In this document: positions 17,900-47,461 of the stretch, in pieces | How positions within the stretch are numbered: position 1 is the first letter of the stretch | Layout of the letters: each line of letters opens with the position of its first letter | Notes under the pieces: generated by a model | Seen by the model: only the letters and a program-made list of their open reading frames with translations | What the model was told of the DNA's origin: nothing | Databases searched by the model: none | Source: an uncultured Verrucomicrobiota bacterium | GTDB taxonomy: Bacteria > Verrucomicrobiota > Kiritimatiellia > CAIQIC01 > Lenti-01 | Direction: 5' to 3' | Assembly (NCBI GenBank): GCA_937860055.1 | Contig: CALMBO010000028.1 | Location: 147,881 to 211,880, forward strand | Length of the DNA stretch: 64,000 nucleotides | Translations under genes and position numbers: made by a program

Positions 17900-18417
17900 T
17901 GAAGCAGAATCCGAACACCGTCTCGTTCACCCTCAACGGCGAACTCAAGACCTTCGCCACCGAACCCAACGAGAAGCTCCTCGCCCTCCTCCGCCGCGAA
18001 GGCTACAAGGGCACCAAGTACGGCTGCGGCCAGGGCACCTGCGGCGCCTGCACCGTCCTCATGGACGACCGCGCCGTCTACGCCTGCCTCCTCTACGCCA
18101 TGCAGGCCGAGGGCCGCGACATCCGCACCATCGAAAGCATCGGCACCTTCGACAAGCCCAGCGAGCTCCAGCAGGAGCTCATCCAGGGCGGCGCCGTCCA
18201 GTGCGGCTTCTGCATCCCCGGCATGATCATGAGCGCCGAGGCCCTCATGAAGGCCGAGACCACCTTCGACGACGACATCGTCCGCGAATACATGGACGGC
18301 AACCTCTGCCGCTGCACCGGCTACGAGAAGATCTGGGCCGCCCTCCGCAAGGTCCTCGACCGGCAGGAAAGCGCCGGGGTTCAGGGTTCAGGCGCCAGTT
18401 CCCATCCCGAATCCTGA
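17899..18417 (+). CDS. Molybdenum hydroxylase, [2Fe-2S] subunit
   Basis: 172 residues; the ATG overlaps the preceding TAA. The plant-ferredoxin-type cluster is GCGQGTCGACTVLMDD...YAC and the second, helical cluster has CGFCIPG and NLCRCTGY, so all eight ligands are present. The conserved protein ends near KVLDRQ (about residue 158); the last dozen residues (SAGVQGSGASSHPES) are translated from the intergenic GAACCC-type simple repeat, i.e. the stop codon lies within repeat DNA. The tail is probably unstructured. The protein carries electrons from the molybdenum centre to FAD. Confidence 0.95.
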   Translation: MKQNPNTVSFTLNGELKTFATEPNEKLLALLRREGYKGTKYGCGQGTCGACTVLMDDRAVYACLLYAMQAEGRDIRTIESIGTFDKPSELQQELIQGGAVQCGFCIPGMIMSAEALMKAETTFDDDIVREYMDGNLCRCTGYEKIWAALRKVLDRQESAGVQGSGASSHPES

Positions 18418-18485
18418 ATCCCATGCCTGCACTCTTGCATTCCATGCTTCCCCTGATCCCTGAACCCCGAACCCTGAACCCTTGA
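18372..18485. repeat. Degenerate GAACCC/GAATCC tandem array
   Basis: GGTTCAGGGTTCAGG at its left and CCTGAACCCCGAACCCTGAA at its right, with related GAATCC units and a CCATGCCTGCACTCTTGCAT stretch between. It spans the last codons of the iron-sulfur subunit and the whole 75-bp spacer before the large subunit. It looks like slippage-generated simple sequence, not a promoter. Confidence 0.6.
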
Positions 18486-24163: not shown

Positions 24164-24202
24164 TCTCTCTGTGTTCTCTGCGCCCTCTGCGGCACTATAA
24201 TA

Positions 24203-24558: not shown

Positions 24559-24660
24559 CGCAAAGGACGCCAAGTCCGCCAAGGTTCGATCCGGACCTTC
24601 AAGGGGTTCAGGATCCCGGGCGCCGTCTTCCACTTTGCGGCCTTTGCGATCTTGGTGTGA
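24559..24660. repeat. Gene-less element with inverted CGCAAAG-type ends
   Basis: Left end CGCAAAGGACGCCAAGTCCG then CCAAGG (9-bp period); right end, read inward on the other strand, TCACACCAAGATCGCAAAGG then CCGCAAAG, also with 9-bp period. The TCACACCAAG end is identical to the terminal repeat of the GxxExxY cassette at 47013. About 50 bp separate the ends. It looks like a small non-coding derivative of that cassette. The rest of the spacer to 24725 is T/C-rich and shows nothing. Confidence 0.65.
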
Positions 24661-40571: not shown

Positions 40572-41052
40572 AACGCAAGAGTCGCAAACGGCGCAAAAGA
40601 CACGCAAGCGCCGATCTTATAATCCATTTACCACCCGGTGAATTCCATCCTTCACAAATTTTTCGCCGAAATTCACGACCAATCCCAATTTCAATCCGGT
40701 CATTCTAAGATAGGTCAAAACCTGGGCTTCGAAGATTGCATGGTATTCCGCCGTCGCCTTGCACTCCACCACCACAGTTCCTTCCACCAGCAAATCCAAT
40801 CTCATCGGCGTTCCAAGACCGCGGCCCTTGTACTTGATCGGCACCTGAACTTGCCGCTGGACTTTCAGGCCCTTCTGCTCCAATTCCCAGGCCAACGATT
40901 CCTCGTACACGCCTTCCAGCAATCCCGGTCCGCCCAGCGTCCGATGCACTTCGATCGCGCACTCGTAAATCGCCCGGCTGACCTCGTTTTCCGCCATCCT
41001 TCATCCTGTCCGTCGTTTGCGTTCCTTTTGCGCCTCTTGCGTCCTTTGCGTT
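40572..41052. mobile_element. GxxExxY cassette A with 39-bp inverted CGCAAAG-unit ends
   Basis: Left end 40572-40610 and right end 41014-41052 are imperfect inverted repeats, 31 of 39 positions matching. Each is an array of four units of 9-10 bp around CGCAAAG (for example AACGCAAGAGTCGCAAACGG). Between them is only the GxxExxY gene. The cassette separates proS from icd, all on the minus strand. Mobility is inferred from this structure and from the second cassette at 47013. Confidence 0.6.
40617..40997 (-). CDS. GxxExxY family protein (PD-(D/E)XK-like)
   Basis: 126 residues. The name-giving motif is in GGPGLLEGVYEESLAWELEQ (G-x-x-E-x-x-Y). The core MRLDLLVEGTVVVECKA shows the D...ExK spacing of PD-(D/E)XK nucleases, and the end HAIFEAQVLTYLRMTGLKLG is typical. 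The function is unknown; the family is annotated as PDDEXK_3. It shares about half its residues with the copy at 47044. The start at 40997 follows ACAGGATGAAGG, which is part of the flank sequence. Nothing links it functionally to proS or icd. Confidence 0.93.
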   Translation of the reverse strand: MAENEVSRAIYECAIEVHRTLGGPGLLEGVYEESLAWELEQKGLKVQRQVQVPIKYKGRGLGTPMRLDLLVEGTVVVECKATAEYHAIFEAQVLTYLRMTGLKLGLVVNFGEKFVKDGIHRVVNGL

Positions 41053-41068
41053 AAACGGCTGTTCGCGC

Positions 41069-47012: not shown

Positions 47013-47461
47013 AAAACTCACACCAAGCCGCGAAGCCGCCAAGATGACCGAAAACGAAATCGGGAAAGTCGTGGTGGACTGTGCGGTCAATCTCCACAAG
47101 GCGTTGGGCCCCGGTCTGCTGGAATCGGTTTACGAAGTTGTTTTGGCCCATGAACTTGAACGGCAGGGCTGTTCGGTTTCCCGGCAAGTGCCAATCCCGA
47201 TTCAGTTCCAAGGCATCCGATTCGATGAAGGATTTCGCGCGGACATGGTCGTGGACGGGAAAGTGATTCTGGAGTTGAAGTCCGTCGAGCAAACAACCCG
47301 CGCCCATGCAAAACAGGTTCTGACCTACTTGAGACTGACCGGCATGAAACTCGGCTTCTTGTTGAATTTCGGCGAAGCCTTGATGCGGGATGGAATTTCC
47401 CGGGTCATCAATGGGGATCTCCAGTGAACTCTCCGTGCCTTCGTGACTTGGTGTGAGAATT
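47013..47461. mobile_element. GxxExxY cassette B with terminal inverted repeats
   Basis: CTCACACCAAG at 47017-47027 is exactly inverted at 47447-47457 (CTTGGTGTGAG), and 3 bases further inward CGAAG / CTTCG also pair; AAAA / TTTT flank both ends. The single gene fills the interior. The same TCACACCAAG end occurs in the gene-less element at 24559. The element sits between the nuclease gene and ispA, 18 bp before the ispA start. Confidence 0.65.
47044..47427 (+). CDS. GxxExxY family protein (PD-(D/E)XK-like)
   Basis: 127 residues starting MTENEIGKVVVDCAVNLHKA. The motif is in GPGLLESVYEVVLAHELERQ. FRADMVVDGKVILELKSVEQ gives the D...ExK nuclease-like core, and AKQVLTYLRLTGMKLGFLLN the conserved end. 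It is complete, so the cassette is not decayed. The start codon directly abuts the left array (CCGCCAAG-ATG), so the inverted end supplies the 5' untranslated region; no Shine-Dalgarno is apparent. The biochemical activity of the family is unknown. Confidence 0.94.
   Translation: MTENEIGKVVVDCAVNLHKALGPGLLESVYEVVLAHELERQGCSVSRQVPIPIQFQGIRFDEGFRADMVVDGKVILELKSVEQTTRAHAKQVLTYLRLTGMKLGFLLNFGEALMRDGISRVINGDLQ

Follow-up and report, generated by a model that had tools for sequence, protein, structure and literature searches.

The question raised by this locus is whether cassette B, a short unit with one small gene between inverted repeats, is a mobile element, and whether a gene-less element 22 kb away is related to it. 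The window is the whole 64,000-nucleotide stretch of DNA that was analyzed. Cassette B lies in it between a SNase-like gene on one side and a farnesyl diphosphate synthase gene on the other.

Structure of cassette B and of other arrays in the window

The initial annotation had described an exact 11-bp inverted terminus with an inner CGAAG at cassette B. Both are present: CTCACACCAAG occupies 47017–47027, and its exact reverse complement, CTTGGTGTGAG, occupies 47447–47457. The inner CGAAG and the CGCAAAG units of the gene-less element proved to be parts of one structure, in which each end consists of three 7-nt units (CRCNRAG). The 5′ array (47017–47043, plus strand) has an outer CTC followed by CACCAAG-C-CGCGAAG-C-CGCCAAG, with the ATG of the gene immediately after it. 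The gene (47044–47427, plus strand) encodes a 127-aa GxxExxY protein (PF13366/TIGR04256) with a PD-(D/E)XK fold. It is followed by the inverted 3′ array (47431–47457, minus strand), which reads CACCAAG-T-CACGAAG-G-CACGGAG on the minus strand.

The gene-less element at 24559–24660 has a left array (24559–24583, plus strand) that reads CGCAAAG-GA-CGCCAAG-TC-CGCCAAG and a right inverted array (24633–24660, minus strand) that reads TCACACCAAG-AT-CGCAAAG-GC-CGCAAAG on the minus strand, or, in unit form, CACCAAG-AT-CGCAAAG-GC-CGCAAAG. The proposal that this element shares a terminus with cassette B and has a CGCAAAG-type array opposite was confirmed; there are three units at each end, and the three copies of TCACACCAAG in the window are those at both ends of cassette B and at one end of this element. 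The common terminus is a unit class found in many elements and is not private to these two. The initial annotation had gone on to propose an autonomous element and its MITE-like derivative. The part of this claim concerning coding and gene-less forms with shared ends stood, on the evidence that elements of both forms have one class of ends and are polymorphic between related genomes, and of a gene-less family in another genome (G027, described below). Descent of this particular element from cassette B found no such support: its 49-nt interior contains no recognizable gene remnant, and the gene-less interiors in this genome are unrelated.

Several other features of the window have similar arrays. 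Cassette A lies on the minus strand, with a 3′ array of CGCAA units at 40572–40611 (minus), its GxxExxY gene at 40617–40997 (minus), and a 5′ array of CGCAAAG-type units at 41012–41053 (plus). In cassettes A and B the sole gene between the ends belongs to PF13366 and is not a DDE-type transposase gene. At 18378–18482, without an assigned strand, two genes of a molybdopterin dehydrogenase operon have between them a gene-less hairpin (GGGTTCA ... CTGAACC), which belongs to the S23-type heptamer class and whose left arm extends over the end of the ORF upstream. The segment 23411–24530 (plus strand) contains an SRA-HNH gene (PF02182 + PF01844) and then an ORF that by eye resembles a Vsr-type mismatch endonuclease, after which comes the gene-less element at 24559; no Pfam match to this ORF was obtained in the frame scanned. 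A small island for modification-dependent restriction or repair is the probable interpretation of this segment. Directly 3′ of the SRA/HNH gene is a lone three-unit array (24167–24191, minus strand), which reads CGCAGAG-GG-CGCAGAG-AA-CACAGAG on the minus strand and for which no partner was found.

The cassette B protein matched PF13366 with 135.6 bits (cut-off 22) and TIGR04256 with 136.4 bits (cut-off 35). Among 101 sequences K79 and E27 were invariant, Q91 was nearly invariant, and D67 and E77 were conserved in at least 90%; the D...ExK core of PD-(D/E)XK proteins (D67, E77-x-K79) is present. The structure model (pLDDT 97) has a PD-(D/E)XK fold, with the Cas4 protein SSO0001 nearest and the Holliday-junction resolvase Hjc also close. 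Because the structural Z values were modest, we assign the protein to the PD-(D/E)XK superfamily only; a search by sequence found no solved homologue. As judged from dN/dS values of ~0.06–0.12 between orthologues where computable, the GxxExxY gene is under strong purifying selection.

Distribution of arrays and cargo genes among genomes

Arrays were counted by pattern searches for three CRCNRAG units with 1–3-nt spacers, and the reversed pattern served as the control. A strict 9-nt unit spacing was tried and rejected, the spacers being 1–3 nt long. The 3.05-Mb genome containing the window (G000) had 22 three-unit arrays vs 0 for the control. As the initial annotation had proposed, the genome was searched for inverted pairs; 16 of the 22 arrays formed eight "+ then −" pairs with under 560 bp between partners, three of them coding (cassette B and loci L001 and L004) and five gene-less, each ~65–95 bp. 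One more single array had a degenerate partner. The annotation had also considered that the terminus might be a simple repeat without partners. This is contradicted, because the control gave no match and 16 of the 22 arrays are paired inversely. The interiors of the five gene-less pairs are mutually unrelated, and the arrays alone are common to them. The pattern of two ACAGGAW units had a single match in the same genome.

Among 57 genomes of the class, the search gave 1333 array matches vs 22 control matches. Array number was correlated with GxxExxY copy number (rho 0.50), and the median was 18 arrays in genomes with GxxExxY and 3 in those without it.

All five GxxExxY genes of G000 sit between inverted arrays, with the units CACAGAG; CGAATNG; CACCAAG/CGCCAAG; CACAGAG/CACGGAG; and CGCAA. 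Further units found in relatives were ACAGGAT, CACGAAT, CGCCGAT, CGCGAAA, and CAGGAAA. The two arms of each element were compared at 73 GxxExxY loci from G000 and 19 related genomes; the genomes were drafts, the gene starts and arm windows were set by script, and contig ends cut some of the arms. Most loci had a single array on each side, immediately adjoining the gene. The median alignment score was 24 for the two arms of one element and 10 for swapped arms, and 60 of the 73 loci (all but 13) scored above the 95th percentile of swapped pairs. Arm scores of at least 16 were obtained for 44/73, 44/77, and 24/32 cassette loci, as compared with 0/32 for a control made of the flanks of two ordinary genes. 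Where both arms have three units, agreement between own arms was 0.94 at unit position 2 (0.61 when swapped) and 0.87 at position 5 (0.50 when swapped); position 4 of the unit was nearly free, and the spacers were free to vary between arms. Arm similarity increased with protein similarity (Mantel 0.13; maximum of 0.07 in 1000 permutations). This correlation is weak overall, and we take it as moderate evidence, because recent common descent contributes to it and some of the likeness of close pairs comes from shared descent of the locus. In one GxxExxY clade (L059, L063, L069, L071, and L073) the start codon is predicted to be within the array, and the units would be translated as the N-terminus, e.g., MNTDGHRL or MGANDGKW.

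The cassette B clade was sampled with 80 protein relatives of 64–76% identity, 77 of them with enough flank for analysis. They came from Deltaproteobacteria, Gammaproteobacteria, Planctomycetes, Nitrospirae, Nitrospinota, Bipolaricaulota, Chloroflexi, Hydrogenedentota, Omnitrophota, Verrucomicrobia, and others, more than 10 phyla altogether. A CRCNRAG array adjoined the gene in 74 of the 77 loci, vs 13 of 681 background windows; in the remaining 3 of the 77 loci with testable flank, no array was seen. The cultured strains Lamprocystis purpurea DSM 4197 and Pelotalea chapellei DSM 13688 are among the carriers of such cassettes. The GC content of cassettes was 52–54%, compared with 66% for the host. 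There were eight matches to plasmids, all weak and below 60% identity, and none to phages.

A second cargo is found in the same arrangement. G000 has five S23/23S_rRNA_IVP genes (PF05635), at least four of which are clearly between inverted heptamer arrays, and S23 arms beat the swapped control in 24 of 32 loci. The periodicity peak was at 8–10 nt in GxxExxY arms and at 7 nt in S23 arms, and shuffled arms had next to no periodicity. The S23 protein is small and helical and is not a nuclease; because it sits in the same plan, a nuclease cannot be a requirement of every such cassette.

Presence, absence, and dispersal of the cassettes

The initial annotation had suggested a comparison of insertion polymorphism, and both cassettes A and B were found to be present or absent at orthologous sites of related genomes. 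The cassette B site, upstream of the farnesyl diphosphate synthase gene, has ~10 bp from stop to start in the congeners G001, G004, and G006 (83–84% protein identity) and contains no array at all. The arms and the gene must therefore have arrived together or in two unseen steps. A possible target-site duplication, TTCAAGGAA/TTTAAGGAA, surrounds cassette B, the congeners being too diverged to fix its exact boundary; neither cassette A nor the G027 copies showed a clear duplication.

The cassette A site lies between the isocitrate dehydrogenase gene and the next gene. A cassette of this type is present there in G000, G001, G003 (frameshifted), and G012 (5′ arm triplicated). The triplicate in G012 (L183, 2750–3110) is in tandem, with a unit of ~90 bp. 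The same site holds a gene-less CAGGAAA pair in G004, a heptamer array in G002, and a deletion remnant in G009, and it is empty or nearly so in G005, G006, and G010. Gene-less CACAGAG-type pairs are found 3′ of isocitrate dehydrogenase in G017 and G019.

In the genome G027 a gene-less element of ~105 bp, whose interior is conserved, was found in 12 copies at different places within 185 kb; its three sampled congeners have 0–3 arrays. One GxxExxY gene of G027 is flanked by two inverted copies of ~90 nt, and these ends have the same outer TTTCCACGAAGACAC and the same hairpin skeleton as the dispersed gene-less family (scores of 46 and 31; shuffled maximum, 16). This is a better case of the coding and gene-less pattern than cassette B and the element at 24559–24660. 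The count of 335 arrays in G027 is not taken to mean 335 elements: a looser two-unit scan of the 185 kb also had matches in coding sequence and to single arms.

Because of the empty orthologous sites, the presence of the arrays across phyla, and the G027 family, we conclude that it is well supported that cassette B is a small mobile element, one of a widespread family with coding and gene-less forms.

Other repeats were seen near some of these loci. In this genus the arms are closely flanked on their outer side by AACAGCCG/CGGCTGTT repeats, sometimes in tandem (L002, L005, L183, L228, and L247), which are possibly an additional, genus-specific intergenic repeat. Palindromes of the TTTTCCAAGGCTTGGAAA type recur in family f2 genomes (L026, L166, and L195) and are an unrelated repeat class.

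Proposed movement of the cassettes and relation to known systems

That the cassettes are mobile we regard as very likely. That the GxxExxY nuclease reads its own arrays and moves the cassette is the best explanation we can offer, with not quite an even chance of being right; it is rated below mobility itself because some genomes without GxxExxY still hold 10–23 arrays. Several copies of the protein would bind units of both arrays, draw the ends together, and cut there, and host repair or replication would finish the excision or insertion, with a preference for short intergenic gaps. The unit would drift along with the protein, so that the ends of each element stay matched. Gene-less pairs recognized by the same protein would be non-autonomous (MITE-like) copies, and the S23 cassettes would be a parallel lineage with the same plan, a different protein, and a 7-nt period.

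Alternatively, the arrays could be element ends moved in trans by an unrelated enzyme, either the host's or another element's, with GxxExxY and S23 as passengers that bind the arrays to some other advantage, such as processing, silencing, or copy control. This would account for one architecture with two unrelated cargo families, for arrays in GxxExxY-free genomes, and for the commonness of gene-less pairs; however, a single common mover does not explain why period and unit track the cargo family and clade. In addition, G010, which has neither GxxExxY nor S23, has 0 arrays, and a transposase was not seen inside the cassettes examined. We think a mover acting in trans rather unlikely.

Somewhat less likely again is that the GxxExxY gene, in the manner of a homing endonuclease, invades gene-less hairpins that are repeats in their own right. 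Such invasion could have produced the loci L144, L089, L034, and L037, where the gene is flanked by two complete gene-less elements with duplicated interiors, and L310 of G027, with one hairpin on either side of the gene. It is difficult to reconcile with the array-free cassette B site of the congeners and with the one array per side, next to the gene, that is found at most loci.

An RNA-level role appears improbable; the arms would base-pair within the operon message, and the cassette would be cut out by RNase III, as happens with 23S rRNA intervening sequences. The S23 family is indeed that of the rRNA intervening sequences, which are excised by RNase III (PMC4990558). For some gene-less elements folding is much stronger than for shuffled sequences (z −6.3 and −3.6; only weakly so, z −1.8, for the element at 24559), and arm units in register agree slightly more than those out of register (p 0.013). 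But mismatches between arms had no G-U bias (125 vs 103, p 0.16), neither unit position 4 nor the spacers are constrained to match from arm to arm, and dispersal would be left unexplained. Chance or simple-sequence slippage, suggested by the short tandem units, has a negligible likelihood, being already contradicted by the 22 vs 0 control, the inverted pairing, the element-specific match of ends, and the conservation across phyla.

Returning to movement by the encoded protein, a wider reading, which we advance as doubtful but possible, is that these cassettes make up a categorically new class among mobile elements. A single small protein per element (a PD-(D/E)XK nuclease or the S23 four-helix protein) would read an end word that co-evolves with it, giving each lineage a word of its own; unrelated proteins would have arrived at this plan by convergence, with different spacings of the word, and the 23S rRNA intervening sequences would be S23 members of the class that had landed in rRNA genes. 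If so, many genes annotated as "hypothetical" GxxExxY or "four helix bundle," together with short intergenic tandem arrays, would belong to one system of tiny mobile cassettes, the origin of rRNA intervening sequences would have a testable answer, and for a family of small nucleases each recognition word could be taken directly from the flanks of its own gene. No description of array-ended GxxExxY cassettes, the array sequences, PDDEXK_3, or TIGR04256 was found in the open-access literature, to which the search was confined.

The nearest described elements are the 23S rRNA intervening sequences (PF05635; Leptospira and Coxiella). Those with S23p are ~430 bp long, with one small ORF and complementary ends, and are sporadic and horizontally transferred; how they arose has been described as unclear, transposition being one of the suggestions (PMC4990558). 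They resemble the S23 genes in inverted arrays described here, but they lie inside an rRNA gene and carry S23p, whereas our cassettes lie between protein genes and have periodic arrays as ends, and cassette B carries a nuclease. In the genomes studied here, S23 genes lie in array-ended cassettes outside rRNA. MITEs and autonomous insertion sequences likewise have inverted ends common to coding and gene-less forms, and the G027 family is dispersed; the elements studied here differ in their variable-unit array ends, in having no DDE transposase, and in the unrelated gene-less interiors in G000.

REP elements tagged with GTAG or CGTC are associated with RAYT transposases (PMC3733652). REPs and BIMEs are also small, multi-copy, intergenic inverted repeats possibly mobilized by a small protein, but by inspection the ends found here (TCTC/TTTAACC plus units) have no GTAG or CGTC tag of the kind that marks one end of a 20–40-nt REP palindrome, and the gene and ends form one cassette.

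Tn7-type ends are arrays of sites for the TnsB transposase, which is accompanied by the PD-(D/E)XK nuclease TnsA. The likeness lies in several short inverted sites at both ends, which are putative protein-binding sites in our case, and in the PD-(D/E)XK fold. Cassette B, however, has a single 127-aa gene whose nearest folds are Cas4- and Hjc-like, and TnsA was not among the matches listed.

The short tandemly repeated repetitive (STRR) sequences of cyanobacteria are intergenic heptamers and, compared by description, resemble the S23 cassettes in being intergenic heptamer arrays; to our knowledge, they have not been described as the paired ends of a gene cassette. Heptamer arrays of the S23 type also occur in mosaic intergenic regions at L230 and L231 (~1360–1700), where one GxxExxY-type array is followed by an S23-type array, as if half-elements had recombined.
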